A DNA stretch of 64,000 nucleotides from Amycolatopsis pithecellobii (GTDB taxonomy: Bacteria > Actinomycetota > Actinomycetes > Mycobacteriales > Pseudonocardiaceae), in contig NZ_WMBA01000022.1 of the NCBI RefSeq assembly GCF_009707865.1, positions 1 through 64,000 of the forward strand. Reading direction: 5' to 3'. Within the stretch, counting starts at the first letter, position 1. Each line of letters opens with the position of its first letter. Positions 26,512-46,617 of this stretch are shown here, one piece after another. The notes beneath the pieces are model-generated. The model searched no databases and had not been told where the DNA came from. It saw only the letters and a program-made list of their open reading frames with translations. The translations under genes and the position numbers were made by a program.

Positions 26512-26706
26512 GTAAGTTCGACGTGTACGCCAGCCCAGATGTTCCGCGCTGGTCCAGCGAAGGCCGGGTGTGCTCCGGAACACGTCCTGAAAGGTAATGG
26601 CGAGGTTGTGCGTGGGCGGAGTCAAGACCGTCGCGATCAGTGAAGGTGGTCGAGGAGATGAGTGAATGCCAGTCGTGGCCGCGTGAATGCGCGTATCCGG
26701 TCGCAC

Positions 26707-28315: not shown

Positions 28316-28350
28316 CCACCAGCCCGTTCAGGGCCGTAGCGAATCGCCGT

Positions 28351-28713
28351 CTACTTGAATCGGCGCATCTCCACGTACATCCCGCGGGACACGTTGCGCA
28401 CGAACGGGAAGTTGCGGAGCGAGCGCTCGGAGACGGCTGCCGGTTCGCTCAGTGCCGACCACTCCTTGCCGGCGGGGATATTGATGTCCGACAGGTCGTA
28501 GACCTGGAGGTACTTCGGCAGCGTGACGATGTCCATGCCGGGCGGGGTCGCGAAGCCGCCCTCCGTCCGGACGAAGCGCCGCACCCCGGTGACGCCGTCG
28601 ATCGCGGCGCGCTCCGGCACGTGCTCCTCGTCGTACCAGCTGTTCAGCTCCTCGTCGTGCTCCCGATCGAAGTCCACGGCAACGATCATCATTCCTGGCG
28701 TGATGTCTGACAT
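28351..28713 (-). CDS. small EthD/dimeric alpha-beta-barrel-like protein
   Basis: 120 residues from ATG 28713 (GAGGAGA upstream); the longer frame is antisense to the neighbouring SDR. The sequence (MMIVAVDFDREHDEELNSWYDEEHVPER, VRRFVRTEG, YLQVYDLSD) looks like a ferredoxin-fold dimeric barrel protein of the EthD type, often an accessory to oxygenases or a small lyase/isomerase. It is the last gene of the large minus-strand block, 35 bp after the SDR. The function is unknown. Confidence 0.72.
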   Translation of the reverse strand: MSDITPGMMIVAVDFDREHDEELNSWYDEEHVPERAAIDGVTGVRRFVRTEGGFATPPGMDIVTLPKYLQVYDLSDINIPAGKEWSALSEPAAVSERSLRNFPFVRNVSRGMYVEMRRFK

Positions 28714-28748
28714 CTCGTTCTCCTCGGGTTGAGCTCGGTCTAGCGCTT

Positions 28749-29591
28749 TCAGACTGTGCTCAGGCCGCCGTTGACCATGACGGTCTCCCCGACCACGTAG
28801 CCCGCCATCTCGCTGGCGAGGAAGAGAGCCACCCTGGCGACCTCTTCCGGCCTCCCTCGCCGTAAGGCTGGAATCCGGACTTCGAGCGTTCCGGTCATTG
28901 CCGGCGGTGTACGTGCCAGCATCGGGGTGTCGATCTCCCCGGGAGCGATCGAGTTCACTCGGATGCCCCGGCCGGCAACCTCGGCCGCGACCGCGCGGCA
29001 CAAGGCATGCACGCCACCCTTGGATGCCGAATAGTGAGGGTAGGCGCTCACGCCCGTAACGCCCGCCTGCGAACCGATGACGACGATCGACCCACGGCCT
29101 TGCGGGAGCATGTGTTGCAACGATGATCGTACGACGTAGAACGCGCCACTGAGATTGATGTCGATCATGCGCTGCCACTGTTCGTCGCTCAGCTGAGCCG
29201 TGATATCGGCACGCTCACCGCGTTCCTGCTGAGCTGCGATCAATGTCTTCGTGTCCGGGTCGTCCACTCCTGCGCAGTGCACGACCACGTCCACGCTGTC
29301 CCTCAAACGGCAGATCTCCTTGAAGAGCCGGAACACCTGTTGTGAGTTCGCGACATCCACACAGTGAGAGGTGGACTCGCCCGGAAGTTCCGCGGAGATT
29401 CTTGCCGCCGCTTCCGCATCGATGTCCGCAACGGCGACACAAGCGCCCGCCGACGCGAATTCGCCCGCGACGGCTGCGCCGATCCCGGACCCTCCACCCG
29501 TGACAAGTACGGTCCTCCCGTCGAACTCACCGGTGTATCGGAACGACATCGAGATGCTCGGCCCCCGGAGGGGCCCGGCACTGCCGGTCAT
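28749..29591 (-). CDS. short-chain dehydrogenase/reductase
   Basis: 280 residues. It has Rossmann VLVTGGGSGIGAAVAGEF, Ser in VVIGSQAG, YSASK, and the C-terminal VVGETVMVNGGLS. The ATG at 29591 overlaps the FAH-family stop (ATGA, 29588-29591). A second in-frame Met (MSFRYTGEFDG) 14 residues in gives a more usual N-terminus. It would oxidise or reduce a hydroxy intermediate of the pathway encoded by this operon. Confidence 0.9.
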   Translation of the reverse strand: MTGSAGPLRGPSISMSFRYTGEFDGRTVLVTGGGSGIGAAVAGEFASAGACVAVADIDAEAAARISAELPGESTSHCVDVANSQQVFRLFKEICRLRDSVDVVVHCAGVDDPDTKTLIAAQQERGERADITAQLSDEQWQRMIDINLSGAFYVVRSSLQHMLPQGRGSIVVIGSQAGVTGVSAYPHYSASKGGVHALCRAVAAEVAGRGIRVNSIAPGEIDTPMLARTPPAMTGTLEVRIPALRRGRPEEVARVALFLASEMAGYVVGETVMVNGGLSTV

Positions 29592-30418
29592 GGCTTCCGG
29601 CTCACGATCGGGTTCCTGACCTCACCAATGCCCTCCACCTCGACGACGACCTCGTCACCGTCCTGCATGAGCCACTGAGGTGTGCGCGCGATACCCACGC
29701 CGGACGGTGTCCCGGTGGCGATGACATCACCGGGAAGCAGGGTGATCGTGTCGCTGATGTAGCTGATGATCTCCGAAATCTTGTGCACGAGGTCCTTGGT
29801 GTTCGCGTCCTGGACGATCTCGCCGTTGACGCGAGTGGTGACGCGCAGCGAGTTGACGTCGGGCAGTTCGTCGCGCGTGACGAGTACCGGCCCGATGGGC
29901 CCGCTGCCGTCCGCGTTCTTCCCGACGGTCCACTGCGGAGTTTCCATTTGTTTCCGCCGTGCGGTGACGTCGTTGAACGCGGTGTAGCCGAGGATGATTT
30001 CCTCTGCGTCGGCCTCGGCCACGTTCCACCCGCTGCTGCCGATGACGACTGCGAGCTCGACCTCCCAGTCGAGACCGTCCTCGTTCGGCGGAATTGAGAT
30101 CGGCGTGCCGTCGACGACCAGCGACTGGGCCCAGCGGCCGAAGACGGTCGGATATGCGGGTCGTTCGAAGTCGACGAGCGTCTTGGCTTCCTCCGCGTGG
30201 CTGTGGTAGTTCACGCCGACGCAGAAGACCCTTGCCGCCTCTGGCACCGGCGGAATCTGCGTGACGTCCTCGATATCGAATGCCTCGCCGGCCGGGCGGC
30301 CCCGATTCTCGGGGGCAGCCGAGTAGAACCCGGCCATCGTGCCGAGGGGAGTCACCTGGTTTCCCTGGACGGCGCCGATGTGTCGCTCGCCGTCCACTAC
30401 ATAACCGATAAGCCTCAT
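29588..30418 (-). CDS. fumarylacetoacetate hydrolase (FAH) family protein
   Basis: 276 residues from ATG 30418 (AAGGA upstream); the open frame extends 35 residues further and overlaps the monooxygenase, but without family similarity. It has GVNYHSHAEEA, the metal-binding DWEVELAVVIG, GYTAFNDVTAR, GPVLVTRDE and the C-terminal GDVIATGTPSGVG. FAH-family enzymes hydrolyse C-C bonds of ring-cleavage diketones, hydrate 2-oxopent-4-enoates or decarboxylate. Here it is placed to process the product of the extradiol dioxygenase at 32.2 kb. Confidence 0.9.
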   Translation of the reverse strand: MRLIGYVVDGERHIGAVQGNQVTPLGTMAGFYSAAPENRGRPAGEAFDIEDVTQIPPVPEAARVFCVGVNYHSHAEEAKTLVDFERPAYPTVFGRWAQSLVVDGTPISIPPNEDGLDWEVELAVVIGSSGWNVAEADAEEIILGYTAFNDVTARRKQMETPQWTVGKNADGSGPIGPVLVTRDELPDVNSLRVTTRVNGEIVQDANTKDLVHKISEIISYISDTITLLPGDVIATGTPSGVGIARTPQWLMQDGDEVVVEVEGIGEVRNPIVSRKP

Positions 30419-30506
30419 AAGGCAGTCCTTCTTTCCCAGTCGTGGTCCGCGATTGCTGGTGCTGGAGTGGCTCTGCAGAACGGAGCCGTGAACCTTCGGT
30501 TCGTCG

Positions 30507-32159
30507 TTATCGGGCTGCCTCATGGCCGGTCACGCAGTCCCATACGCCGGTCACATCGGCGGTTCCGGACCCACGCCAGGCGACGTGGCCGTCGGGCCGG
30601 ACAAGGACCGTGGTGGCGCGGTAGAGCTCGTCGAGCCCGGGCTCGACGAGCCCGAGCACCGTGAGCGGGATGCTCCTCTCGATCGCCTCGCGCTCCAGCT
30701 GCGCCGCCGTCTCCCCACCCTCGAGACACAGCAACGTGAATCCTGGGCCGAACTCGTCGAAGAGAGCCGCCCCCGTCGAAAGCCACCAGTGGGGGGCCCG
30801 TGCCCCCGGCCTTGCGGTAGGCACGTAGACATCGGGCCGATCGGGCGGAGCCGGCGTGCCGTCGTCCACGACGATGGGGGATCCGGCGTAGGAGGCGCCC
30901 AGCTGGATTCCCAGCGAGGCGAATTCGTCCTTGAACCCCTTCAGGAGCTCGGCGAGCTCGGCTACCGCCGTTGGGTCCTCGGTATCCGCGTCGTCGGTCA
31001 CGGCGCCGAGTGGAATGTCCCGCAGGCTCTTCGAGAGTGCCAGAGCCGCGTTCGTGTTCCGGATGGCGATCGGCCTGCGCTCGAGTTCGTAGCTGGCCAT
31101 CAGCGTCGAGCCGCCCCACCCCTGCACCGCTCCCGCCAACTTCCAGGCGAGATTGACCGCGTCGTCGACCCCGGTGTTCATCCCGAAGCCACCGGTGGGG
31201 GTGAACAGATGCGCGGAGTCTCCGCAGAGGAAAACCCGACCGGCCCCGTAGGAGTCGGCGACGAGCGCCCGCCCCGCCACCCAGTCCTCGGTCCCCAACA
31301 CCTCGGTCTCGAGGTCCGCGCCTGCACCCTTGGCCACTCGCTTGCGAATGGCCTCCTCATCAAGATCGTCCTCCTGGACGGCATGGAAGATGAACTCGTC
31401 CTCGCCGTCCAGACTGACGAAGTCGAAGATCCCCTCTGGCCGGATCACCCAGTACTGCCAGCAACGTCTGTCCTTGAGCAGGCGAGACAGACCCCGGACG
31501 CGGATGTAGGTCGAGTGCTGCAGCCCGTTCATGAATCCCTGCTCGCGGCCGTCCTCCCCGACGTACTTGGCACCGAGCCGCCGGCGCACCATGCTGCGTG
31601 GCCCGTCGCACCCGATGAGGTAGTCAACCGTGACGGTCTCGTGTCCGGTTGGCCTCTCGAGTTTCAGCTCGACGTGCTCGTCCCGCTCCGCGAAGTCGAT
31701 GCACTCCGTGCTCATCAGGCAAGTGATCCGTGGCGCTTGGAGCACCTCGGAGAGCAGGATGGCTTCCACGTACATCTGGTTGCTCCGATGAACGGGCTCC
31801 GGAGTCGGATCGCCCCTCTGCTTGCGGGCGACTTTCGCGAGCACCTCGCGGCACGAGTGCATCTCGAGTCGCTGGATCTCCCGGCCGGCGAGGCTCGTGA
31901 AATAGGCGACGTCGGTCGGATGATCCAGCGGCAAGCCGGTAGCACGAACTCGGCCGGCGAGGCCGAGACTCCGATAGTGCTCCATGGTCCGGGCGTTATG
32001 GGTGTTGCCCTTCGGGTGCATGCGCGCCGAACCTGATCGTTCTATGACGACGCTGTCGACGCCCAACTGCTGCAACTTGAGTGCCAACATCATGCCCACC
32101 GGCCCAGCACCGATGATTCCGACCGGGAAGTGGGAATTGTTGTCCGAGGTCTCGCTCAT
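30507..32159 (-). CDS. FAD-dependent aromatic hydroxylase (MhpA / phenol hydroxylase type)
   Basis: 550 residues: GIIGAGPVGMMLALKLQ (14-30), DG motif GCDGPRSMVRRRLG, and FAD motif CGDSAHLFTPTGGFGMN. A C-terminal thioredoxin-like domain (FTLLCLEGGET, VLVRPDGHVAWRG) is typical of the phenol-hydroxylase/MhpA subfamily. It would ortho-hydroxylate a phenol to a catechol using NAD(P)H. The adjacent VOC-type extradiol dioxygenase and FAH-family hydrolase complete a meta-cleavage route. Confidence 0.92.
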   Translation of the reverse strand: MSETSDNNSHFPVGIIGAGPVGMMLALKLQQLGVDSVVIERSGSARMHPKGNTHNARTMEHYRSLGLAGRVRATGLPLDHPTDVAYFTSLAGREIQRLEMHSCREVLAKVARKQRGDPTPEPVHRSNQMYVEAILLSEVLQAPRITCLMSTECIDFAERDEHVELKLERPTGHETVTVDYLIGCDGPRSMVRRRLGAKYVGEDGREQGFMNGLQHSTYIRVRGLSRLLKDRRCWQYWVIRPEGIFDFVSLDGEDEFIFHAVQEDDLDEEAIRKRVAKGAGADLETEVLGTEDWVAGRALVADSYGAGRVFLCGDSAHLFTPTGGFGMNTGVDDAVNLAWKLAGAVQGWGGSTLMASYELERRPIAIRNTNAALALSKSLRDIPLGAVTDDADTEDPTAVAELAELLKGFKDEFASLGIQLGASYAGSPIVVDDGTPAPPDRPDVYVPTARPGARAPHWWLSTGAALFDEFGPGFTLLCLEGGETAAQLEREAIERSIPLTVLGLVEPGLDELYRATTVLVRPDGHVAWRGSGTADVTGVWDCVTGHEAAR

Positions 32160-32233
32160 CCCGTCCTACCTGAGTGGCTGGTCTGCGTTCTTGGCCCGGG
32201 GGCCCGGTGCGTTGTACTGAGGCCGGAGACGCC

Positions 32234-32782
32234 CTAGTGCGTCTGCCCGACCTCCTGCTCGGCGAGCATCGCCTCGTCGATGTAGCCGGTCTGGCCGAAC
32301 TTCGCGACGCGCTCCCGCACCTCCGCGAGGAGGGTCTCCTCAGGCAGGGTGAGGTCGATGCCGTACAGAAACGGCTGACGGGCCTCGAGCCCGGTCTGCC
32401 AGTACACCTCGAGCCGGTTGCCTTCGGGATCCCGGAAGTACACGCCGATGGCGTTACCGTGCGACACGACCATGTCGATCGGTGCCTGCGCGTCCACGAT
32501 TCGGCCGTAAAGGGCTTTCAGCCCGGCCAGGGAACCGCACCGCCAGGCGATTTGCTGGACGAGGTGGACGTCTCGCTCGACATCGCGTCCCGAAGCCAGC
32601 AGCAGCTCGTGATGCTCGGCGTCCGGGCGCGAGCTCATGAACACGATTCCGTTCTCGGGCGCCTCGTCCGTGATCTGCAGGCCGAGCACATCCCGGTAGA
32701 ACGCGACCTGGTTGTCCAGATCATTCGTAAAAAGACCTGTGTGGCCGAGCTCTACGATCTCCTCTTTGCTACGTCCGCCCAT
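32234..32782 (-). CDS. VOC-family single-domain extradiol (catechol 2,3-) dioxygenase-like protein
   Basis: 182 residues with one VOC module (about 10-130) plus a C-terminal tail. Candidate metal ligands are H14 (ELGHTGL), H57/H58 (EHHELLL) and E125 (NRLEVYW). Many extradiol dioxygenases have two VOC modules of about 300 residues; the single-domain kind is less common and works as a dimer. It lies 74 bp upstream of the hydroxylase that would make its catechol. A glyoxalase or epimerase role is the alternative. Confidence 0.82.
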   Translation of the reverse strand: MGGRSKEEIVELGHTGLFTNDLDNQVAFYRDVLGLQITDEAPENGIVFMSSRPDAEHHELLLASGRDVERDVHLVQQIAWRCGSLAGLKALYGRIVDAQAPIDMVVSHGNAIGVYFRDPEGNRLEVYWQTGLEARQPFLYGIDLTLPEETLLAEVRERVAKFGQTGYIDEAMLAEQEVGQTH

Positions 32783-32807
32783 CTGATTCTCCCATCAGAA
32801 TTATTGG

Positions 32808-33800
32808 CTAGCTGAACTTCGTGCTCCGCTCCGAGCCCGTGGTCGAGGCAGGCTCGGTTCGCTGACCCTCGCGAAGCCAGCCCCAGTGCTCGAGCCACTG
32901 CCTCGCGGTCTTGGCGTGGGCGAGGTCGACGTGCTGGCCGCCCACGACGAGCGCGGCGTCACCGCGGACGACCGCGGCGTCGAACTGAGCCACGACCTCC
33001 TCGTAGAACGCGAACTCGGTGGCCGAGGGCGTGAAGACCTCATTGGCGATGTGGACGTGACTGGGGTGGATCACCATCGCTCCCCGGTAGCCGAGCTGCC
33101 GGTTCGAGCCGAGGAAATCGCGTAGCCCGACAACATCGCGGACGTCCTGCCACAGCCCGCAGACCGGGTGGTCCAGACCGGCGGTCCGACAGGCCAGGAG
33201 GATCTTGCTTCGCGCGTACAGAGTCTCGAGGCCCTCGGCCGTGAAGATGTAGCCCAGCGCCCGTGCGATGTCACCGTGCGGACCGGTGCCGCCGAGCATG
33301 CTCACCACACGTGGACTCGCCGTCGCCAGCTCGGCCGCTCCGGCGATCGCCTTCGCCGTCTCGAGCGTGAGCAGGAACTTGGTCCGCCCCTGCTCCACCC
33401 CGCCCAAGGCCTCGAGCGAGGTCACCACGCCGTCGAAGTAGTGGATCTCCGCCGATGTCTCGACCTTTGGCAGGACTAAGCCGTCGATCCCACTGCAGAC
33501 GACCTCGGCGAGATCGTGCCAGACCAGACCTGAATCCCACGAGTTCGGCCGAACCCAGACGCCGTAAGGCCGACCACCGGCCGCCAGCCTCCGAGAGGTG
33601 CGCGACACCGTCTGCCGAGCTTCCGCTTTGAGATCGGCTGGGACTGCGTCCTCCAGATCGAGGATCAGCGCGTCCGCGCCTGCCGCTACGCCTTTGTCCG
33701 CCCAGGACTCCTTGTGACCGGGCACGAACAGCATCGACCGGTACGGTTTCATCCCGTGCGAGGCAGCGCCGCTCTGATGTGCGTTGGCGACAGTGGTCAT
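32808..33800 (-). CDS. HpcH/HpaI or CitE-like CoA lyase/aldolase
   Basis: 330 residues of the citrate-lyase beta family: SMLFVPGHKESW, LILDLEDAVP (substrate/Mg site), WVRPNSWDSG, LVLPKVE and LLTLETAKAI. These enzymes cleave or form C-C bonds next to a CoA thioester (malyl-CoA lyase, citramalyl-CoA lyase, beta-methylmalyl-CoA lyase). The ATG overlaps the crotonase stop (ATGA, 33797-33800). A central lyase step for a hydroxyacyl-CoA intermediate is inferred. Confidence 0.9.
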   Translation of the reverse strand: MTTVANAHQSGAASHGMKPYRSMLFVPGHKESWADKGVAAGADALILDLEDAVPADLKAEARQTVSRTSRRLAAGGRPYGVWVRPNSWDSGLVWHDLAEVVCSGIDGLVLPKVETSAEIHYFDGVVTSLEALGGVEQGRTKFLLTLETAKAIAGAAELATASPRVVSMLGGTGPHGDIARALGYIFTAEGLETLYARSKILLACRTAGLDHPVCGLWQDVRDVVGLRDFLGSNRQLGYRGAMVIHPSHVHIANEVFTPSATEFAFYEEVVAQFDAAVVRGDAALVVGGQHVDLAHAKTARQWLEHWGWLREGQRTEPASTTGSERSTKFS

Positions 33801-34627
33801 TCGCGGTCACCGCCGGGCCAGTACTCCATGGCCCCCACGCCTTCGGCCATGACTCCTACATCGATTGCGTCGCTCATCGATCGCCTTAGTTCTCGGGTGA
33901 GCACCATTCTCGTCGAGCGCAATGCCACATCCGGCTTGGCCACGAGCTCCCGCGCGATCTGATGGGCCCGTGGGAGGAGGTCGGGCTTGTCCAGGACCTC
34001 GTTCACCACGCCCATCCTCAGTGCCTCCTCAGCCGAGTACTGCTTGCCGGTGAGAGCCATGTAGCGAGCCCGGTTGAGCCCGAAGACGGTTGACAGGACG
34101 GTGTGGATGCCGTCACCCGGAACGATCCCCCGGGTGAAATGGACGCGATCGGCGAAGAAGGCCGTGTCGGCCGCGATGACAATATCGCACAACAACGCCT
34201 GCTCACAATGAATCGTGGCAGGTCCGTTGACCGCGGCAATCATCGGAACCTCAATGTCCAAATGCCCCAGCACCAGGCGGCGCGCGATACCGTGAATGGT
34301 CTTCCAGCGGCGTGGCGTGAAACGATTTTCACCTTCCGCCACGACTCCTCCGAGATGAATGAAAGTGTCGCCCGTCCCGGTAACGATGACGACGCGATTA
34401 TCTTCATCGCGCGCGACACGCTCCCACAGCGAGACCAATTCGGCCTGAAACTCGAGGTTCCACCGCACGTCCCCGTTGCCGGTATGCAACCGAACCTCGA
34501 GCACGCCGGCTTGACGGCTCAAGTACACGAAGTTGAAGTCGTCGGCGTACTCCGGCCGCTCGACGCAAGAAGACATCATATCGCGTTTCTTCTCATGAAC
34601 GTGCTGGCGCACTGAATCACCTGACAT
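33797..34627 (-). CDS. enoyl-CoA hydratase/isomerase family protein
   Basis: About 276 residues from ATG 34627, which overlaps the preceding VOC gene by 11 bp; the frame is open 8 codons further. It has the crotonase oxyanion-hole segments (TFIHLGG, NGPATIHCEQALLCDIVIA) and the later VHFTRGIVPGDGIH. The first glutamate of hydratases is not obvious, so an isomerase or C-C hydrolase activity is possible. It is adjacent to the CitE-like lyase. Confidence 0.87.
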   Translation of the reverse strand: MSGDSVRQHVHEKKRDMMSSCVERPEYADDFNFVYLSRQAGVLEVRLHTGNGDVRWNLEFQAELVSLWERVARDEDNRVVIVTGTGDTFIHLGGVVAEGENRFTPRRWKTIHGIARRLVLGHLDIEVPMIAAVNGPATIHCEQALLCDIVIAADTAFFADRVHFTRGIVPGDGIHTVLSTVFGLNRARYMALTGKQYSAEEALRMGVVNEVLDKPDLLPRAHQIARELVAKPDVALRSTRMVLTRELRRSMSDAIDVGVMAEGVGAMEYWPGGDRE

Positions 34628-35126
34628 TGCCCGCTCCCGGTTTCGCCACATCCGGAGCCAGACCCGAATCCACCCATTTCATCAGGTCCTGATAAACGGC
34701 GTAAGAGACGGTCTCGATCCACAAGCCACCGACGGGACTGCGGAAATAGTAAGCGATCGGAGCGCCGTCGTCGGGGCCGTGCAGCTCAAAGGCCGGGACA
34801 TAGTCCTTTGCTTCCAGGTGGCGGCACGCGTCCTCGAGGTCCGGTACCGCAAAACCGAGATGATGGACGGGATGCTCCGCAGTGCGCCACATCTCGCCGT
34901 CGATGTGTTCGAGTAGCTCAACCCGGTGCGGACCATTCGTTGAGAAGGTCAGCCGTGTCGTCCGTTGGCCAACCGACGTCGGGTTCCGCATCTGTCCGGT
35001 CGTAGTGATGGGATCGGCCCACGCAAAGCCGAAACCCGCGGCCATCGTCTTCATCGCTGCGTCCAGATCGGGCACGATCATCCCGGTGTGGAAAAGCATG
35101 AACTGCTCGAGGTGTGGCTCCGTCAT
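34617..35126 (-). CDS. VOC-family (glyoxalase / epimerase-like) protein
   Basis: About 169 residues from ATG 35126, which has GAGGGG upstream; a frame-open ATG at 35183 overlaps the permease stop by 8 bp and adds 19 residues. It has one VOC fold: LFHTGMIVPDLDAAM near the start, HHLGFAVPDLEDA and WIETVS, giving His/His/Glu metal ligands. It resembles the methylmalonyl-CoA epimerase/glyoxalase group rather than ring dioxygenases. It is encoded directly after the importer genes. Confidence 0.78.
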   Translation of the reverse strand: MTEPHLEQFMLFHTGMIVPDLDAAMKTMAAGFGFAWADPITTTGQMRNPTSVGQRTTRLTFSTNGPHRVELLEHIDGEMWRTAEHPVHHLGFAVPDLEDACRHLEAKDYVPAFELHGPDDGAPIAYYFRSPVGGLWIETVSYAVYQDLMKWVDSGLAPDVAKPGAGNVR

Positions 35127-35175
35127 GCGAGCAGCCCCCTCTCGACGCCGTACCCCGACGTCCGCGCCCCGCGAT

Positions 35176-36318
35176 TCATTCATCGTTCGATCCCGTGCCT
35201 CTATGCTGCGTCTCAGCTGCGGAGACCGGGTACACGTCGTCGTGGTGTCGAGACCGGTCGGCGTTCTCGGTCACATGGTGGCGTGCGATCCGGTAGGCCC
35301 TTCTCAACCCGGCCGCGATTCCACCCGGCATTCGTGTGACGACAAGGATCACCAGCACGCCGTACAGAATGAGGGCGATCTGCGGGCCGAGGGTCGTGGC
35401 GCTTGATCCGATGCTCCCGCGCAGTACGGCGGTGGCGAGGACGGGCAAACACGTGACGAAGAAGGCGCCGACGATGGTACCCGCGATGGAGTCCGGTCCC
35501 CCGATGACGACCATCGCAACGTACTGCACCGTCAGGAGCAAGGTGTAGCTGCTCACCGTCGCGAACTGGGCGTAATGGGCGGCGAGCGCGCCTTGCAGGC
35601 CGATGATGCCGAATCCCACGCCGAACACCAGCAGCTTCGAGCGCATGGCGCTGATGCCGAAGGTCGGGGCGGCCCGCTCGTGGTCACGCACCATGCGCAG
35701 AGCACGTCCGGACTTCCCGCGGCTCAGCACCGAGCACAGCAGAACTACGACGCACACTACCCCCGTGAGCAGCCACGACCAGCGCATTGTGGTGTCCCTC
35801 GGGAATTCGCCACGCAACATCGCCGTGGGCAGTCGGAATCCGGCCTCGCCCACCGTCGCTCGCTGGAACTCGGAGCAGAAAAAATAAACGATGAAGTAGG
35901 CCGAGACCGTCGCCAATGCGAAATATAGGCCCTTGAGGCGCACTGCCGGGAATCCGATGAGAAGACCTATGACCCCTGCCACGACGACCGCAACGATGAC
36001 GTCGCCCGGGAAGCCGAACCCACTGCGAACGACTCCGGCCGCGGTGAACGCACCGAGTGCAAGGAATGCGGAGTTCCCCAGGGACACCTGCCCGGTAGTG
36101 CCCATTTGCAGATTGAGTGCGACAGCGCCCATGGAGGCAAGCAGACACAGGTTGAAAACGTACAGAGTGTAGTTCGGAAGAATGAGTACCGCGAGTCCGG
36201 TGATCAACAGAAGGAGTGGAATCCCCACCCAGGACGAGAAGACCCGGAGCTCGATTTCTCTGAGGAATGAACGCGATTGAGAGATCGGAGTCGCATTCAC
36301 GATTTCTGTCTGAGTCAT
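35176..36318 (-). CDS. branched-chain amino acid-type ABC transporter permease (LivM family)
   Basis: 380 residues with about 8-10 hydrophobic segments. The LivM signature region is LGNSAFLALGAFTAAG, GLLIGFPAVRLKGLYFALATVSAYFIV and a later GRALRMVRDHERAAPTFGI (EAA-like loop). The C-terminus is a charged tail. It overlaps the LivH-type gene by 4 bp. In catabolic clusters of actinobacteria such importers often carry aromatic or other carboxylates rather than amino acids. Confidence 0.93.
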   Translation of the reverse strand: MTQTEIVNATPISQSRSFLREIELRVFSSWVGIPLLLLITGLAVLILPNYTLYVFNLCLLASMGAVALNLQMGTTGQVSLGNSAFLALGAFTAAGVVRSGFGFPGDVIVAVVVAGVIGLLIGFPAVRLKGLYFALATVSAYFIVYFFCSEFQRATVGEAGFRLPTAMLRGEFPRDTTMRWSWLLTGVVCVVVLLCSVLSRGKSGRALRMVRDHERAAPTFGISAMRSKLLVFGVGFGIIGLQGALAAHYAQFATVSSYTLLLTVQYVAMVVIGGPDSIAGTIVGAFFVTCLPVLATAVLRGSIGSSATTLGPQIALILYGVLVILVVTRMPGGIAAGLRRAYRIARHHVTENADRSRHHDDVYPVSAAETQHRGTGSNDE

Positions 36319-37190: not shown

Positions 37191-37195
37191 CGTGG

Positions 37196-38847: not shown

Positions 38848-40001
38848 CGGAGGTACGACCCATCGAGCGCCGTGACGGAGTCGCAGCCCAGACCGGCAAG
38901 GGTGTCGTCGATGCCCTGTCGCAGCAGCTGGAGCACCCGGGCGACGCCCGGTTCGCCAGCAGCGAGCAGGCCGTAGAGGTAAGCGCGGCCGACGAGGACC
39001 GCCTTGGCGCCCATCGCGATCGCCTTCACGACGTCGGAGCCGCGCCGGATACCACCGTCAACCAGGACCTCGGCTCGACCGTCGACCGCGTCGAGGACCT
39101 CGGGCAGCACACTGAGCGTGGCCGGCTGGCCGTCCAGCACATTGCCACCGTGGTTCGAGACGATCACCGCCGCCGCCCCGTGGTCGACCGCCTTCAGCGC
39201 ATCCTCGGCGGACATCACCCCCTTCACGATGAGGGGGCCCTGCCAGGCCTCCCGGATCCACTCGAAGTCGGTCCAGGCCGGGGTCCGGCGGTAGATCGCT
39301 GATCCCACCTCGAACATCGTCATCGGTCGGCCGTCTTTGGCCCCACCCATCGGGACGTTGAGCCGCCCGCGACTCCTGGCGAACTCCAGCGCCCACCCGG
39401 GCCTCGCGGCAACCTGAGGCGCGACCCGCGTCAACTGGCCGTACCGCAGTGACGTGGGAGCGAAAGCACGCTCCCGCAACGGTCGCTCGTAGGAGGCGGG
39501 GGCCTGCGTGTCAATGGTCAGCACGAGGCCCGCACACTTGCTGTCCCGCGCCCGTTGGATGGCCTGCTCGGCAACATCTCGTCCACCGAGGTAGTAGAGC
39601 TGGAAGAACGTCGGCGCGGGTGTCGCCGCCGCGACCTCCTCGATGGGAGTCGTAGTGAGCCCGCTGACGATCTGAACGGTCCCCGCCGAGTCCGCTGCCC
39701 GGGCGACCGCGATCTCACCCCCACGGCGTCCGAGGCCGAGAAGGCCGACAGGTGCCGCGATCACGGGCATGGACAGCTCGTGGCCGAGGAAGGTCGTGCG
39801 GAGGTCGCGCACCGGGGTGAAGGTGGCGTGGCGTGCCTTCAACCCGGTCCGCTCGAAGGCGGCGACGTTGGCCTCGAGAGAGATCCCTTTCCCCGCCCCG
39901 CCCTGGAATCGCTGGAACAGGAATCGCGGGACCGCTCTCCGGGCCAGCTGCTCCGCGTCCGCCACGCTGTTCATGCGCTGGATGACGTTGTTGCGCAACA
40001 T
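38844..40001 (-). CDS. FMN-dependent alpha-hydroxy acid oxidoreductase, MftD-like
   Basis: About 385 residues from the Met at 40001 (the frame opens at 40055). It is a TIM-barrel FMN enzyme of the lactate/mandelate dehydrogenase family: MPVIAAPVGLLGL, FFQLYYLGGRD, VLTIDTQ, LIVKGVMSAEDA, VDGGIRRGSDVVKA and VGRAYLYGLLAAGEPGV. The active-site segment reads SNHGGNVLDG, with Asn where lactate oxidases have Arg. SNHGGN is the form I recall for mycofactocin-system MftD (premycofactocin synthase). It could be a MftD paralogue recruited to a catabolic operon, acting on a hydroxy acid or other substrate. It is inserted between the ABC binding-protein gene and the importer ATPases. Confidence 0.85.
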   Translation of the reverse strand: MLRNNVIQRMNSVADAEQLARRAVPRFLFQRFQGGAGKGISLEANVAAFERTGLKARHATFTPVRDLRTTFLGHELSMPVIAAPVGLLGLGRRGGEIAVARAADSAGTVQIVSGLTTTPIEEVAAATPAPTFFQLYYLGGRDVAEQAIQRARDSKCAGLVLTIDTQAPASYERPLRERAFAPTSLRYGQLTRVAPQVAARPGWALEFARSRGRLNVPMGGAKDGRPMTMFEVGSAIYRRTPAWTDFEWIREAWQGPLIVKGVMSAEDALKAVDHGAAAVIVSNHGGNVLDGQPATLSVLPEVLDAVDGRAEVLVDGGIRRGSDVVKAIAMGAKAVLVGRAYLYGLLAAGEPGVARVLQLLRQGIDDTLAGLGCDSVTALDGSYLR

Positions 40002-40109
40002 GTCGAGACTCTCTTCGTGTCCGTGGTCTGTGGGGTACCTCTCGTGCGACCGCACTCCGCGCCCGGCGTCCTCGGCGGGTTGCTCCCGGAACTCGGGGCC
40101 TCGCGCCGG

Positions 40110-41330
40110 TCAGCCCACCTGGGTCGGTGTTCCGACCGCGACCGGCTTCTGGCTCTGGGAGTCCCACCGGTAGAGCTGCACTGCCGTCAGGCCGTAGTGC
40201 TTGTCCGGGGTGAAGGTGATCGGGCCGTACATGGCGTCAGCGGGGACATTGATCGGCCCTGCGCCCTCTGCCGCCGCCTGGAAGCCCTCGGGGCTGCAGG
40301 ACGCGCCGCATTTCTGCAGGATCGCAGCTGCCGTGTACGCCGCAGCCCACCCCTGGGCGAAGTAGCTGGTGTCCTGAGCCTGGGCCTGAACTCCCTTGGC
40401 CTTGGCAGCGTCCGCGAGCGGGGAACCGGCCGTGGCGACGGCGCCGAGCCGGACGGCCGAGTAGTTCGCCGCCGCGACCTTGGCGAACGAGGACTCCTGT
40501 GCCACCCCGTGGGTGGCGATGATCTGCCCCTTGAAGCCCGCGGTGTTCAGGGCCTTCGCCTCCAGGACGGTCCCCGCCACGGAGTCGATCAGCAGGACGG
40601 TGTCGGGGGCGTCCTTGACGAGGGCGGCCGCCTGGCTGCTGAACGAGGTCTGGGTGATCTCCGTCCGCACCACCGAGGTGAGGTCGACGTTCGCCCCGGC
40701 GGCGTCCGCCTGGATCTTCTTGAGGTAGCTGTCGATGGCAGGAGTCGCGAGGCCAACCACCGCGACCTTCATCCGGTCGGTCTGCGGCACACCGCTGACG
40801 ACACGCGATCCCGAGAGCAGTGTCCGCGAGACCTGCCCCGCCTCGAGATTCAGGCTGTAGTGCAGCGGAATGGGTGGCGTCACCGCCTCCTGGGGCCCGC
40901 TCAGGTCGATCACGGGAATGCTCGAGTTCGCGAAGACCGGCAGGCTCGCCGCGACGCCGGCGCTCGAGGTCGACTCGATCACCACATCCGGGGTCTCGGA
41001 GAGCGCCTGCTGCGCGGCGGTCCCACCGCCGTCGGCGGTCGACTGGGCATCGAAGGGACCGACGACCGTGACCTTACGCCCGTTGATCCCGCCATCCTGG
41101 TTGATCTCGTCGACCGCGGCCAGCACGCCCGGGGAGCCCAGTCCCAGGGCCGTCTGGGGCCCGGTGAGGTCGGCGATCACCGCGATCTTGAGGTCCCCGC
41201 TCCCGGAGCCGGACCCACCGTCCGCGCATCCGGCAAGGGTCAGCGCCGTCAGGGCCACAAGACCAACGGCAACCGCCCGCGACGGGCCGGCGCCGGTTTT
41301 TCTCCAGTGCAACGTTGCCATCTGGATCAT
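40110..41330 (-). CDS. ABC transporter substrate-binding lipoprotein (LivK family)
   Basis: 406 residues. The N-terminal signal peptide ends in a lipobox LAGC (Cys35), followed by a Gly/Ser-rich linker and a periplasmic-binding-protein type I fold (LKIAVIADLTGPQTALGLGSPG, KVTVVGPFDAQST, VVIESTSSAGVAASLPVFANSSIPVI). It is a membrane-anchored receptor that delivers substrate to the LivHMGF proteins encoded downstream. The substrate cannot be read from sequence. Confidence 0.92.
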   Translation of the reverse strand: MIQMATLHWRKTGAGPSRAVAVGLVALTALTLAGCADGGSGSGSGDLKIAVIADLTGPQTALGLGSPGVLAAVDEINQDGGINGRKVTVVGPFDAQSTADGGGTAAQQALSETPDVVIESTSSAGVAASLPVFANSSIPVIDLSGPQEAVTPPIPLHYSLNLEAGQVSRTLLSGSRVVSGVPQTDRMKVAVVGLATPAIDSYLKKIQADAAGANVDLTSVVRTEITQTSFSSQAAALVKDAPDTVLLIDSVAGTVLEAKALNTAGFKGQIIATHGVAQESSFAKVAAANYSAVRLGAVATAGSPLADAAKAKGVQAQAQDTSYFAQGWAAAYTAAAILQKCGASCSPEGFQAAAEGAGPINVPADAMYGPITFTPDKHYGLTAVQLYRWDSQSQKPVAVGTPTQVG

Positions 41331-41348
41331 CCTTTGTGATTCGAGGGC

Positions 41349-42107
41349 CTACGCGTGGGGCTCGGACTTTTGAACGAAGCCGTAGATCTCGTAGACCAGG
41401 GACGCGTCAAAAACGGGGTACATCCCCCGGTACCAATGGTTGAGGGTGTGTTTCGTCCACCGAATTGAGTTCGGTGTCTTGCTCACCAGCCGACCGGCGA
41501 GGTCGACGCCGCGTGTCAGGGCCTCGCCGTCCGGCGCGCACACGGAGACGAGCCCGATCTGCTCGGCCTTGGGTCCGGTCACGGGTTCACTCGTCAAGAG
41601 GTAGTACTTGGCTCTCGCCATTCCGCACAGCAACGGCCAGCAGATCGCGGCGTGGTCGCCGGCGGCCACGCCGTGCGCATTGTGCCCGTCGCGCAGCGTC
41701 GCGGTATCGGAGGCGACCGAGATGTCGGCGAGCAGCGCCACCGCGAGCGCTGGACCGCTCGCCATCCCCTGAATCACGCTGACCAGCGGCTTGTCGAAGT
41801 TCAGCACGTTCATCACGATGTCCCGCGCTTCGATCATCGTGCGCGTGCGGACCTGCGGGTCGTCGACCATCGCCTCGATGAGGTCGGCGCTGGCGCCCCT
41901 GGAGAACGTGTCGCCGCTCCCCGCGATCAGGACCACCTCAACGTCGTCGTCTTGGCTGATCGCCGGCCACAGCCGTGTCAGCTGCTTGTGGAAGGCGGAA
42001 TTGATCTCGTTCCCGTTCGGCGCGGTGAGGTCGACCTGGAGCACGCCCTCACGCGGGTTGGAGAACGTGAATGCGTCGAACTCGCTCCGATAGGCGGCCA
42101 CACTCAT
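41349..42107 (-). CDS. enoyl-CoA hydratase/isomerase family protein
   Basis: 252 residues from ATG 42107, which overlaps the MaoC stop (ATGA, 42104-42107); upstream codons are antisense-like. It has crotonase fold segments [42 protein letters not shown] and [18 protein letters not shown]. The last segment resembles carnitine racemase or ring-cleavage hydrolase members as much as true hydratases. It may act after the MaoC hydratase or carry out a thiolytic/hydrolytic step. Confidence 0.88.
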
Positions 42108-42595
42108 CGTCCCGCCCCCGCACCGGCCGAGACTTCCGCGGACTCGGCCGGGCACCGCAGCATCAGGGCGCTCCGTTCACAGCGGGCGACCGCGGTGCCG
42201 TGCTGGTTGTAGCCTGTGTGCTCGAACGTCACCACTCCGGCGGACGAGCGGGACTTCGACTCCCTGCGGGCCTTCACCACGGTTTCCACTCGTATGGTGT
42301 CCCCGTGGAAGACGGGTGCCGGGAACTCGATCTTTCCGAAGCCGAGATTGGCCACGGTCGTGCCGAGAGTCGTCTCGCTCACCGATATCCCCACGACGAG
42401 CCCGAGTGTGAAGAGGCTGTTCACAAGGCGCTGCCCGAACTCCGTCCGGCTCGAGAACTCGGCATCCAGATGCAGCGGTTGCGGATTCATCGTCATGACG
42501 CTGAACAGCGTGTTGTCGGCCTCGGAAACGGTGCGCGTCACCGAGTGCTCGATTTTCAGCCCCTGGCTGAGCTCTTCGAACCACAGACCTGCCAT
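42104..42595 (-). CDS. MaoC-like (R)-specific enoyl-CoA hydratase
   Basis: 163 residues from ATG 42595, which has a strong GAGGAGG. It has a hot-dog fold with the catalytic pair in [33 protein letters not shown] (D-x-N/H hydratase 2 motif; here His-Leu-Asp) and [16 protein letters not shown]. It hydrates a 2-enoyl-CoA. It sits between the acyl-CoA racemase-like gene and the crotonase. Confidence 0.9.
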
Positions 42596-42606
42596 GGAAA
42601 ACCTCC

Positions 42607-43803
42607 TCAGACGGTCGAGCCGGTGGCTTGACCGAAGACGCCTCGTGCGATCAGCCTGTCGATCGCAGAACTGGTGTGGCCCAATTCCCGCAGCGTCGCA
42701 ACGCTGTGGGCGCCGACCCGCGGTGCCGCCTCCGGTACGGCAGGCTCGGACTCCGAGAACCGGGGAACCGGGGCCGGCTGCCGGACGCCAGCGATGTCCA
42801 CATAGGAGTTGCGCTCGACGTGGTGCTCGTGGCGGGATGCCTCCAGCGGATCCAGAACCGGCGCGACACAGGCGTCCCGGTCGCCGAAGATCGTCAGCCA
42901 CTCGCTGAGCGTCTTCGACCGGAACCGGCCGGCTACCAGCTCCTTGCGACGTGGCCAGCCGGCCCGGTCCAGCTGCGGATACATGTCCGTGTGGTCGAGA
43001 CCCAGCCCGTCGACGAGCTCCGCGTAGAAGGCGGCCTCAATCGCGCCGACGGAGATCCACTGGTGGTCCTCCGTCTCGTAGACGTCGTAAAACGGCGCGC
43101 CCGAGTCCAGCATGTTGGTCCCCCGCGGGCCACGACCCACTGTCCAGGGCGCCCCATGGAACATCGTTGTCAGGAGTGCCGATCCGTCGACCATCGCAGC
43201 GTCGACCACCTGACCCTTTCCGCTTCGATTCCGGGCCAGCAGAGCGCACAGCACGCCGAACGCCAGGAAGCAGCCGCCGCCACCGAGGTCGCCGAGCAGA
43301 TTGAGCGGCGGCGTGGGCGGCTGGTCGCGCCGCCCGATCATCGCCAGGGCGCCGCTCATCGCGATGTAGTTGATGTCGTGGCCGGCGCGCTGGGCATATG
43401 GCCCGGTCTGCCCCCACCCCGTCATCCGGCCATACACGAGCTGTGGGTTCACCGCGAGGCACGTCTTGGGCGAGAGACCGAGACGTTCCATGACACCCGG
43501 CCGATAGCCCTCGATGAGGACGTCCGACCGGGCCGTGAGTGCGAGCGCCACGTCACGCCCCTCGGGATGCTTCAGGTCGACGGCGACCGAACGACGCCCC
43601 CGCACGACGAGATCGCGTGCGGGGCGGCCCAGCTGGGACAGCCTGTCCAGCCGAATCACCTCGGCCCCCAGGTCGGCGAGCATCATGGCCGCGAAGGGTG
43701 CTGGGCCCATGCCCGCGAACTCGAGCACTCTGATCCCCGTGAGCGGCCCGGCCGACCGGGCGGCGCCCGGTTCGCCGGAGTGCACGGTCGCTACCTCGTC
43801 CAT
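42607..43803 (-). CDS. family III CoA-transferase fold, alpha-methylacyl-CoA racemase-like
   Basis: 398 residues of the CaiB/BaiF fold. The three catalytic residues known for mycobacterial alpha-methylacyl-CoA racemase are present in the same context: H142 (GHDINYIA), D172 (LGDLGGG) and E256 (GAIEAAFY). This points to a 2-methyl branch in the acyl-CoA substrate. The gene starts at the base after the stop of the next CoA-transferase gene. Confidence 0.88.
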
Positions 43804-45063
43804 CTAGATGACCCCCGCCGTACGTAGCGCCGCGACCTCGTCCTCGCCCAGGCCCAGAACGTCGTGCAGGAGCGCGGCGGTGTCCTGGCCGAGCCTCGGC
43901 GCCGGCTGCTTGAGGCTCACCTCGGAGCGGGAGAACTGCCACGGCACACCCGAGCCGACGAGCGCCGTCGACACCTCGGGATCCGGGTGCGGGAGATCGA
44001 CCAGGATGTTCCGTGCGTGCAGGCTCGCATCGTCGAGGACCTCCTCGACGGTGCGCACCGGTGCGCACGGGACGCCGTGCTGCTCGCTCAGCACCTCCCA
44101 GACCTCTGCCTTGGACCTCAGCAACGTCCAGCCCTGGATGATCTGGTCCAACTCGCTGCTGAACTTGACCCGTCGGCCCCGGCTGCTGAAACGCTCGTCT
44201 CTCACGAGCTCGGGATGGTCCATCGCTTTCGTCAGCGCCCGGAACCAGGGATCGAGCAACGCGGCGATCGCCATGTGGCCGTCCTTGCACTCGTAGACTC
44301 CGAACGGCGCGAGGCGAGAGTGGGAGTTGCCGCTTCGCTTCGGCAGACCGACGGCAGCGGACGCATCGAAATGCTCCAGTGCCACCAGCAGCGCGAGGGA
44401 CTCGACCAGCCCGACGGTGACGTTCTGCCCGACCCCTTCTCGGTCCACGACCCGAAGTGCGGCGAGGATGCCGCTCACGGCGAACATCGGGGCAACCAGG
44501 TCACCGATCGGGACGCCGACACGCATCGGAGGTGTTCCGGGCTCGCCCGTGACGTCCATGACTCCGCTCAGGGCCTGGATGATGATGTCCATGATCTTGG
44601 TGGAGGCGAACGTGCTGTCCGGAGAGACGCCGTCGATCGAGCAGTAGACGAGGCGTGGGTTGATCTTGTGCAGCGTCTCGTAGTCCGCGCCCAGCTTCTG
44701 CACCGTGCCCGAACTCAGGCTCTGCACGAACACATCGCTTCGCCGGACCAGGTCGTGCAACACGTCGCGGCCCTGCGGGGTCGAGGCGTCGAGCGTCAGG
44801 CTCCGCTTGTTCCGGGACCGGTTGAGCAGGGAGACCGAGTGATCATCCGGGCTCTCGGCGTGCAGGTGAATTCCGTTCGGCCCGACATAGGGCGGGTTGC
44901 TGCGGGCGAGATCACCGCCGCCGGGGCGCTCGATCTTGATCACTTCTGCGCCCAGGCTGCCGAGCAGCAGGGTGCAGAAAGGCCCTGCCAGCGCCGATGT
45001 CATGTCCAGCACCCGCAGTCCTTCCAGCGGCCTGGTCCGGAAATCCCGTGTCACGGCACCCAT
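43804..45063 (-). CDS. CaiB/BaiF family III CoA-transferase
   Basis: 419 residues: GLRVLDMTSALAGPFCTLLLGSLGAEVIKIE at the N-terminus, and the nucleophilic Asp expected of true transferases at D159 (MDIIIQALSG). The His of the racemase is absent here, in contrast to its neighbour. It would transfer CoA from a donor such as succinyl-CoA to the imported carboxylic acid. No AMP-ligase is encoded in this block, so this may be the activation step. Confidence 0.9.
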   Translation of the reverse strand: MGAVTRDFRTRPLEGLRVLDMTSALAGPFCTLLLGSLGAEVIKIERPGGGDLARSNPPYVGPNGIHLHAESPDDHSVSLLNRSRNKRSLTLDASTPQGRDVLHDLVRRSDVFVQSLSSGTVQKLGADYETLHKINPRLVYCSIDGVSPDSTFASTKIMDIIIQALSGVMDVTGEPGTPPMRVGVPIGDLVAPMFAVSGILAALRVVDREGVGQNVTVGLVESLALLVALEHFDASAAVGLPKRSGNSHSRLAPFGVYECKDGHMAIAALLDPWFRALTKAMDHPELVRDERFSSRGRRVKFSSELDQIIQGWTLLRSKAEVWEVLSEQHGVPCAPVRTVEEVLDDASLHARNILVDLPHPDPEVSTALVGSGVPWQFSRSEVSLKQPAPRLGQDTAALLHDVLGLGEDEVAALRTAGVI

Positions 45064-45065
45064 CC

Positions 45066-46229
45066 TCAGTACGACTTCGGCAGCGTCAGGACGTGCTCGG
45101 AAAGGTAGTTGAGCACCATCTCCTGGGAGATGGGCGCGATCCGGTACAGCCGCGACTCACGCCAGAGTCGCTCGATGTGGTACTCCTTCGCATAGCCGAA
45201 GCCTCCGTGCACCTGGAGCACGGCGTCACAGGCCGAGAAGCCGGCGTCTGCGCCCAGGAACTTCGCGGTGTTCGCCAAGGGCCCGCACGGCAAGCCGTTG
45301 TCGTAGTAGTCGGCCGCTTTCAGCGCAACGGTCTCCGCAGCGGTCAGCCGCGCCCAGTTCTCCGCCATCGGGTGCGCGATCGCCTGGTTCGCCGCGATGG
45401 GACGATCGAAGACCGTTCGGGACTTGCTGTAGTCGACCCCGAGTCGGAGGGCGGCGTGGCCCATGCCGATCGCCTCCATCGCGATGACGATCCGCTCGGG
45501 GTTCAGCCCATCCAGGAGGTAGCGGAACCCCTTGCCCACCTCGCCGATAACGTCGTCGTCCGTCGCGACGAGGTCCTTGATGAAGACCTCGTTCGAGTCG
45601 ACGGCTGACCGCCCCAGCTTCTCGATGACTCGGATGTCCACTCGGGACCGGTCGATCTCCAGGAAGAAAAGCGTCAGCCCGTCGAACGGGCGCTCCTCAT
45701 CCCTGGGAGAGGTGCGCGCGAGGAGGATCATGTGAGTCGCGTTCTGCGCGTTGGTGGTCCACACCTTTTGGCCGTTGATGATCCACTTGTCGGCTGAGCG
45801 CACCGCCCGCGTCGCAGTACGAGAGGTGTCCGAACCGGCGTTCGGCTCGGTGATGCCGAACGCCATGACCATCTCGCCCCGCGCGATCGTCGGCATGTAC
45901 CGGCTACGCATCTCCGCGGATCCGTGCCGGAGGATCGGAGACGGTGGGAAGACGTAGAAATGCATGGCCGCGGCGCCACTCGTGCCGGCCCCGGACGCCG
46001 CGATCTCCTTCATCAGGAGTGCCGCTTCCTTGATGCCGAGCCCGAGACCGCCGTATTCCTCGGGTACGACGATGCCCATCCAGCCCGCGTCGGCGAAAGC
46101 GTTGATGAACTCCCACGGGTACTCGTGGCTACTGTCGCAATGCGACCAGTAGTCTAGCGGAAACCGGGCCGCAAGCTTCCGAGACTGTTCGATGACGTCT
46201 CGCTGGACCTCGGTGAACTCTTCGAACAC
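45066..46229 (-). CDS. acyl-CoA dehydrogenase
   Basis: 387 residues, the usual length. It has AFGITEPNAGSDTSRTAT (FAD/substrate), WIINGQKVWTTNAQNA, QVHGGFGYAKEYHIERLWRE and the C-terminal helical domain. It introduces the alpha,beta double bond for the MaoC/crotonase steps. It is the first gene of the 19-gene minus-strand block, and its stop is 2 bp before the CoA-transferase start. The N-terminus (EEFTEVQRDVIEQSRKLAARF) is canonical. Confidence 0.93.
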   Translation of the reverse strand: MFEEFTEVQRDVIEQSRKLAARFPLDYWSHCDSSHEYPWEFINAFADAGWMGIVVPEEYGGLGLGIKEAALLMKEIAASGAGTSGAAAMHFYVFPPSPILRHGSAEMRSRYMPTIARGEMVMAFGITEPNAGSDTSRTATRAVRSADKWIINGQKVWTTNAQNATHMILLARTSPRDEERPFDGLTLFFLEIDRSRVDIRVIEKLGRSAVDSNEVFIKDLVATDDDVIGEVGKGFRYLLDGLNPERIVIAMEAIGMGHAALRLGVDYSKSRTVFDRPIAANQAIAHPMAENWARLTAAETVALKAADYYDNGLPCGPLANTAKFLGADAGFSACDAVLQVHGGFGYAKEYHIERLWRESRLYRIAPISQEMVLNYLSEHVLTLPKSY

Positions 46230-46617
46230 GGTTCTCCTTGATTACCTGCCTTGGCTCTCACCGACCGTCGGCGCCTGATCGACCACAGCAGCGCATCGAT
46301 TCGAGCTGCTCGTCGTTCGGCGTCAGGAGCCAGCCCCTCAGGGCCCGCTCAGCAAAACTCGACGAGACAACGCGCCACAAGCGCACCGACCGGCCTACGG
46401 CCACAGCGTCCGCATGATGAACAGGTCCTCGGCCGGCGATCGCATAGTGGACGCGCAGACATCAGACAGTTACCCGCGTGGGACCGTCAGACTTTCCGAC
46501 ATGCGGAATGCCGGCCACAACCGCTTGTCGTAAGTGCTGGCGAGCAGTCAACTATGTGTTGTCCATCACACGACCGGCTATCGTGTGGACCCTATTTTCA
46601 CCGTAGGAGTTCGCGAC
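46230..46617. promoter_or_regulatory. divergent control region of the large catabolic block
   Basis: This 388-bp region separates the minus-strand 19-gene block from the plus-strand small ORF and IclR gene. Its main feature is the perfect inverted repeat listed at 46567-46587. No other gene is supported. Confidence 0.55.
46567..46587. promoter_or_regulatory. palindromic site CACACGA-N7-TCGTGTG, candidate operator
   Basis: CACACGA (46567-46573) and TCGTGTG (46581-46587) are perfect inverted arms with a 7-base spacer, within the divergent intergenic region. It lies 31 bp upstream of the small ORF that precedes the IclR gene. Size and position suit autoregulation by a dimeric or tetrameric regulator such as IclR. 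Confidence 0.5.

Follow-up and report, generated by a model that had tools for sequence, protein, structure and literature searches.

A nineteen-gene catabolic block of Amycolatopsis pithecellobii that appears to join two separately recurring modules

Several described pathways resemble parts of a block of 19 genes in the soil actinobacterium Amycolatopsis pithecellobii, which lies on the minus strand from 46229 to 28351 of a 64,000-nucleotide stretch (contig NZ_WMBA01000022.1, positions 1 to 64,000), referred to below as the window. In the ipp cluster of Rhodococcus sp. D-6 (2-isopropylphenol), the part of the published account drawn on here describes flavin hydroxylation, opening of an alkylhydroquinone by a single-domain extradiol enzyme of the VOC type, a FAH-domain protein and, as a proposed downstream product, the 2-methyl-branched acid 2,3-dimethylbutanoate (PMC12442392). 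All of these have likely counterparts in the block. According to the same part of that account, the ipp cluster uses a two-component hydroxylase and an acetoacetyl-CoA-synthetase-like ligase, whereas the block has a single-component hydroxylase (FMO), a VOC protein with a glutamine at position 77, a Liv importer, and a coenzyme A (CoA) set made up of a CoA-transferase, an alpha-methylacyl-CoA racemase (AMACR), MaoC and CitE. The fde naringenin operon of Herbaspirillum seropedicae, compared by its description and not by sequence, also starts ring degradation with a flavin adenine dinucleotide (FAD) hydroxylase, FdeE, and meta-cleavage is proposed; the part of the source cited mentions neither a CoA module nor AMACR (PMC11303751).

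The lower steps of the ethylmalonyl-CoA and methylaspartate routes provide the best solved relatives of the block's MaoC and CitE proteins, and its class III CoA-transferase is related to Mct; the block differs in having a MaoC with a single hot-dog domain, a transferase that scores below the model cut-off, and ring-cleavage genes alongside. Itaconate degradation (RipABC or Ict-Ich-Ccl) likewise combines a MaoC-type hydratase, a CitE-type lyase and a CoA-transferase, but the block's MaoC reaches only 133.1 bits against its best NCBIfam model, the RipB/Ich equivalog (cut-off 340) and its CitE 112.7 against that for RipC (cut-off 375), and the block additionally holds an acyl-CoA dehydrogenase (ACAD) and AMACR. 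The riboflavin (lum) pathway was set aside, as the Rieske-dioxygenase and pyrone-hydrolase steps given in the part of its description cited are unmatched in the block (PMC12746152). An orcinol-type pathway was likewise set aside as the direct forerunner.

In the samples compared, the nearest thing to the block is a cluster in the same genome, on contig C144 (9395-19906 of locus L028), with relatives of ACAD (54%), FMO (41%), the FAH hydrolase (39%) and the VOC protein (38%). It differs in its HHE-type VOC protein and in ligase- and thiolase-like open reading frames (ORFs), named by eye, and MaoC and CitE have no match in the 40 kb that include it. This cluster also has an SDR relative, and is reminiscent of the ipp cluster.

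Two modules in one block

The block consists of 19 consecutive ORFs on one strand, as the initial annotation had it, an arrangement with a chance of about 2^-18 if the orientation of each gene were random. At least eight overlapping junctions had also been reported; this is true of the longest ORFs (12 of 18 junctions), but refined starts leave seven, or five if the FAH hydrolase and one SDR gene (SDR1) also start later, so that the count depends on the choice of starts. Under the same three sets of starts, 16, 15 and 14 of the 18 junctions have gaps of at most 40 bp, and with refined starts 15 of the 18 fall between -17 and +40 bp. The widest gaps are those between LivK and a flavin mononucleotide (FMN)-dependent dehydrogenase (108 bp), between VOC2 and FMO (74 bp) and between LivM and VOC1 (49 bp), with a possible 88 bp between FMO and FAH given the later FAH start. 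This spacing suggests that all 19 genes could be on one transcript.

The ring module comprises a class A flavin aromatic hydroxylase, a VOC protein and an FAH-family hydrolase. The hydroxylase (FMO, 30507-32159) scores 588.7 bits against PRK06126 (cut-off 445) and has RebC as its best PDB relative (1.4e-78). The hydrolase (29588-30523, with a start at 30418 more likely) matches FAA_hydrolase at 6.5e-72 and, in the PDB, 1gtt at 5e-57. The VOC protein (VOC2, 32234-32782) has a single domain and is the presumed ring-cleavage enzyme, on weak extradiol matches considered below. Close by lies OCH (33797-34579), a crotonase whose best relatives are the 6-oxocamphor/beta-diketone hydrolases 1o8u (phmmer 3.2e-54), 1szo and 2j5g, the top chain outside the hydrolases reaching 2.2e-25. 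The His and Asp of its HF..GIVPGDG stretch are aligned and kept, residues which we take to be the catalytic His145 and Asp154 of 6-oxocamphor hydrolase; on these relatives and residues OCH belongs to that family. The second crotonase (41349-42107) is EchA15-like (1.2e-75; PRK07327 298.5 bits for the longer ORF, cut-off 292). Plain enoyl-CoA hydratases were rejected for both crotonases, the best relatives of which are the 6-oxocamphor/beta-diketone hydrolase and EchA15 groups. The term "hydratase" is consequently doubtful for both crotonases, and the initial annotation, which named two hydratase types, had missed a hydrolytic C-C cleavage.

The CoA module is led by ACAD (45066-46229), assigned by Pfam and by its best PDB relatives, which are acyl-CoA dehydrogenases. 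The YEGT glutamate of 5lnx is missing from it in the alignment, and it carries PERIVIA at 244, where isovaleryl-CoA dehydrogenase presumably has its catalytic Glu; the catalytic Glu of ACAD is likely to be at that same position. CaiB2 (42607-43803) matches the AMACR structure 8rmw at 4.3e-116 (phmmer) and shares the AMACR active-site motifs AGHDINY, LNLLGD (LNL.GD) and GAIE, to which we ascribe catalytic roles; its closest relatives are AMACRs, and it is clearly an alpha-methylacyl-CoA racemase. The MaoC hydratase (42104-42595, 163 aa, single-domain) has beta-methylmalyl-CoA dehydratase as its best PDB relative (3.8e-20), and CitE (32808-33800), a CitE-family beta-hydroxyacyl-CoA lyase, has malyl-CoA lyase (1.4e-34) and malyl/beta-methylmalyl-CoA lyase (2.6e-32). 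CaiB1 (43804-45063), a class III CoA-transferase, has as its best NCBIfam model the succinyl-CoA:mesaconate CoA-transferase equivalog (275 bits, cut-off 700), and carries DIIIQALSG at 159 and a GNSH loop at 245. This loop has the GNxH form that is reported for Mct/YfdE CoA-transferases in the part of the source cited (PMC5592240).

The two modules recur in other genomes, apart from each other. Neighbours were called from matches at E<=1e-8 that cover half the query, with the proteins of the window as queries, which favours close loci. The flanks of the best 80 of 119 VOC2 loci vary in length (27 of the 80 are under 15 kb, and L010, L011 and L017 have about 3.5 kb), so that neighbour counts are lower bounds: at least 31 have an FAH match, at least 13 FMO, at least 9 a crotonase and at least 14 a LivG-type ATPase, although crotonases and ATPases are such large families that any of their members could account for the last two counts. 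MaoC or CitE occurs in none of these 80 flanks. CitE itself is matched at E<=1e-60 in 22 of 298 genomes of the order, the host included; 22 non-self matches were listed, in 21 genomes, and 20 loci fetched. Relatives of ACAD (50-64%), MaoC (51-59%) and CitE (42-55%) lie within 20 kb or less in 15 of these 20 loci, and none of the 20 holds VOC2, FMO or FAH. Liv-type ATPase matches occur in six of the 20, including five of the 15 with the ACAD-MaoC-CitE set. For LivK, none of the 297 genomes other than the host's has a match at E<=1e-50, the best few candidates of each being scored.

Among 397 sampled genomes of the order (host included, best few candidates scored in each), VOC2 is matched at E<=1e-40 in two and FMO at E<=1e-120 in four. 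A scan of genome contigs by 8-residue patterns, made with VOC2 alone, confirmed no relatives among 27 stretches. Plasmid searches (tblastn) with OCH, VOC2 and FMO gave relatives all below 60% identity (1042, 45 and 139 records, respectively). Of the six plasmid loci retrieved through VOC2 or FMO matches, those of Variovorax, Paraburkholderia and Agrobacterium vitis hold hydroxylase, FAH, VOC and IclR genes close together, and the A. vitis locus additionally holds a Liv-type transporter. OCH relatives are widespread, and all four plasmid loci fetched with OCH show other settings.

As the modules recur apart and are never joined in these samples, the block reads as a composite of a ring module (hydroxylase-VOC-FAH) and a CoA module (ACAD-MaoC-CitE); to judge by these comparisons, what is new is how familiar enzymes are combined, and the underlying biology is of a known kind. 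The plasmid and genome searches gave relatives only, which rejects identity with a known cluster in the collections covered, and no description of a matching pathway or cluster surfaced in our literature search, from which we do not claim absence from print. The initial annotation, which had also found no described counterpart, agrees with this and with the family and structure matches for the importer (LivK/H/M/G/F), the class III CoA transferase, the 2-methylacyl racemase, the acyl-CoA dehydrogenase, one hydratase (MaoC), the CitE-family lyase, the aromatic hydroxylase and the FAH hydrolase. Its single complete logical path gives way to two separately recurring modules that appear to have been joined.

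The metal site of VOC2

The best solved relatives of VOC2 by sequence are extradiol dioxygenases, with weak scores (best 3.4e-8), and the NCBIfam catechol 2,3-dioxygenase model gives 43.5 bits (cut-off 320.2). Two features weigh against a conventional extradiol enzyme. The extradiol matches cover the first half of two-domain enzymes, which we take to be the half without iron, and VOC2 has Gln77 in place of the second iron His. A comparison by function can be made with IppB, a single-domain extradiol enzyme of Rhodococcus sp. D-6 whose activity, in the part of the account cited, needs H29, H92 and E140 (PMC12442392). VOC2 reproduces the spacing of this triad (63 and 48) with H14, Gln77 and E125, not with His-His-Glu; the comparison is by published residue numbers, the IppB sequence itself being outside the alignment. 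The extradiol dioxygenase of the initial annotation is therefore an insecure assignment, with weak similarity to such enzymes but Gln in place of His at the presumed second iron-ligand position.

Across 91 aligned rows (in which one gene is contained twice, as L010 and L045), 61 have Gln and 30 have His at position 77, while H14 is conserved in 87 rows, H58 in 86 and H108 in 90. The VOC2 loci were picked with DNA patterns that span YF.DP.GN and R.EVYW, so that part of the conservation of Y115, P119, N122 and E125 follows from the selection, whereas H14, H58, H108 and position 77 are unaffected. On a tree computed with column 77 masked, the distribution of Gln and His takes two changes (500 shuffles: mean 25.3, minimum 17), with support of 0.89 for the main His clade (29 tips) and of 0.79 and 0.68 for the largest Gln clades. 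To judge from this tree, Gln77 is a clade-defining residue of the single-domain VOC family. FMO or FAH lies nearby in 37 of 60 Gln rows (the window's own row excluded) and in five of 30 His rows, a contrast that is partly an effect of distance, as the neighbour queries are proteins of the window and the His rows are more distant.

An AlphaFold model (predicted local distance difference test, pLDDT, 90.4) predicts a VOC fold. In the fold search a 169-residue homogentisate dioxygenase (9u42) ties with glyoxalases and Fos proteins, and these tied matches among VOC-fold proteins do not separate a dioxygenase from a glyoxalase. With weak extradiol similarity, Gln77 and tied fold matches, the ring-cleavage role of VOC2 appears to be mainly contextual and its metal site atypical. 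No description of unusual VOC iron ligands surfaced in the literature search, and absence from print is not claimed here either.

It is conceivable, though we rate it as doubtful, that VOC2 is instead an enzyme of the glyoxalase, epimerase or isomerase type, the ring being opened elsewhere or the substrate being alicyclic (camphor-like). Gln77 in place of the ligand His, the Foldseek top matches (glyoxalases, with many Fos proteins) and the membership of OCH in the 6-oxocamphor family would all fit; the extradiol relatives, weak as they are, and the spacing shared with IppB fit the dioxygenase. This alternative is compatible with either of the two considered below. A bolder and somewhat less probable proposal is that the VOC2 clade consists of single-domain ring-openers in which a His-Gln-Glu metal site, or a substituting His58, replaces the 2-His-1-carboxylate triad, acting behind flavin hydroxylases in many bacteria; here the VOC2 product would enter a beta-methylmalyl-CoA-type lyase route, taking the ring to propionyl-CoA and glyoxylate. 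Of what is new in the block, the Gln77 clade lends itself best to a test, as it asks whether VOC ring cleavage can proceed without the second iron His.

A possible route and its alternatives

We consider it an evenly balanced proposition that the block is a dedicated catabolic operon, probably controlled by an IclR regulator, in which two joined modules serve import and ring opening and then a CoA route. LivKFGHM would import an aromatic substrate, probably acidic; the flavin hydroxylase would put a hydroxyl on the ring, VOC2 would open it, and the FAH hydrolase and the OCH-type crotonase would break C-C bonds of the diketo acid so formed, leaving small keto acids together with an acid that is methyl-branched and succinate-like. 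To this acid CaiB1 would transfer CoA, CaiB2 would racemise its alpha-methyl centre, ACAD desaturate the CoA ester, MaoC hydrate it and the CitE-type lyase split the product. The simplest such route would run from methylsuccinyl-CoA through mesaconyl-CoA and beta-methylmalyl-CoA to propionyl-CoA and glyoxylate, with an alternative end from citramalyl-CoA to acetyl-CoA and pyruvate. Gene order, family memberships and the racemase motifs are read directly from the DNA; ring cleavage by VOC2 and the order of the steps would follow from the families, and methylsuccinate, the simplest acid fitting all five CoA enzymes, is the C5 acid that we infer. The ipp cluster is a precedent, with its proposed passage from an opened alkylhydroquinone to a 2-methyl acid.

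Several observations count against this route. The RipB, RipC, CitE and Mct models all score below cut-off, and MaoC has one hot-dog domain where the PDB entry 8hgn matches with two; its score against Pfam PF19315 (52.3 bits, cut-off 26.5) covers positions 21-166 of 353, short of a full-length mesaconyl-CoA hydratase. The ACAD-MaoC-CitE relatives elsewhere have no AMACR-like neighbour (the best CaiB2 match shown is about 32%), so that the methylsuccinate reading rests on the window locus. Among the plasmid loci, that of Streptomyces has no annotated hydroxylase or FAH beside its VOC gene, that of R. opacus PD630 has a cupin and FAH and no hydroxylase, and that of Polaromonas has other regulators; the four OCH relatives on plasmids have surroundings unlike the block, with molybdopterin oxidoreductases as frequent neighbours. 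Modules standing side by side may, moreover, not share one substrate.

This last point leads to the alternative of two adjacent independent pathways, one in which the importer and CoA module would serve a branched dicarboxylate (itaconate, mesaconate or methylsuccinate) and another for ring cleavage. The recurrence of the modules apart (0/80 and 0/20) and the Liv-type ATPase matches of the six CitE loci would be expected of it. In the block, however, the modules are interleaved, with VOC1, OCH and CitE between LivM and VOC2; the OCH and CitE genes share 4 bp, and CitE and VOC2 are 25 bp apart. Neither an internal promoter-like site nor an excess of terminators marks a boundary: within 27600-46700, both strands, no sigma-70-like promoter was found (1.6 expected in shuffles), which is weak evidence as actinobacterial promoters may escape detection, and there are six terminator-like sites (7.4 expected). 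We regard independent pathways as unlikely.

Equally improbable is the order of the initial annotation, in which the CoA module would first shorten a 2-methyl-branched side chain of an aromatic compound before ring cleavage. In its favour, the CoA genes lead the block, and the title of a PDB entry related to the racemase mentions 2-arylpropionyl-CoA. Against it, lyases of the CitE type normally depend on a carboxylated substrate of the malyl type, and none of the 19 genes was recognised as a thiolase that could finish ordinary beta-oxidation. As the esters cleaved by CitE enzymes are malyl-type CoA esters, the CoA module is more likely to handle a substituted-succinate-like fragment than the branched acyl side chain that had been claimed.

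If the composite operon is real, it would be a full route from import to central metabolism for a class of compounds, and a gene set with which to find the substrate. Actinobacteria commonly carry large catabolic operons, and the 7.9 Mb host genome shows an extreme expansion of the FAH domain, with 45 matches at E<=1e-30 (53 at 1e-3), against 6-15 in 18 genomes of the same genus, a comparison that scored 40 of the host's 59 candidates; its Glyoxalase-domain matches number 81. A bespoke cluster is less surprising in such a setting, and this FAH-rich genome looks promising as a place to find ring-degradation routes that are still unexplored.

Importer, regulator and flanking genes

The importer genes follow the EchA15-like crotonase. 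They encode a LivK-type substrate-binding protein (40110-41330; Peripla_BP_6 2.8e-33), LivF-type (38068-38847) and LivG-type (37196-38071) ATPases, and LivH-type (36315-37190) and LivM-type (35176-36318) permeases, the last four assigned by family-model matches. Three genes absent from the initial annotation are an FMN-dependent dehydrogenase of the hydroxyacid-dehydrogenase family, a second VOC protein and a divergent IclR regulator. The first, between LivK and LivF (38844-40001; FMN_dh 1.1e-112), is MftD-like and scores 359 bits against the NCBIfam model for MftD pre-mycofactocin synthase (cut-off 470.85). A mycofactocin role was rejected on this score, and because no MftD exceeds the cut-off anywhere in the genome. 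It carries SNHGGN, where the four paralogues shown from its own genome all have SNHGGR, with Arg. VOC1 (34617-35126) is a Glyoxalase_4/epimerase-like VOC protein (Pfam PF13669, 1.9e-13) with weak similarity to methylmalonyl-CoA epimerase, scoring below cut-off (2.8e-4). The block ends with the SDR oxidoreductase SDR1 (28749-29591; family-model match) and a 120-aa protein (28351-28713), termed EthD-like in the initial annotation, which has no match in Pfam or NCBIfam searches and a poor single-sequence structure model (pLDDT 33.7).

The IclR-family regulator lies upstream and divergent (46830-47711, plus strand, 5' end approximate; IclR_C 1.3e-19, HTH_IclR 3.8e-8), and only weak or short inverted repeats were found as candidate regulator sites in the gap between it and ACAD. 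Its best NCBIfam model is BhcR (109 bits, below the cut-off of 350). BhcR is a regulator of the beta-hydroxyaspartate cycle, and this match may hint at a connection with glyoxylate. Downstream of the block, after a gap of 684 bp, are a minus-strand SDR gene (26926-27666) and then an aldo/keto-reductase-like ORF (region 25936-27666), which could belong to the block. Just past the IclR gene, a berberine-bridge-type FAD oxidase gene occupies 47821-49296 on the minus strand.

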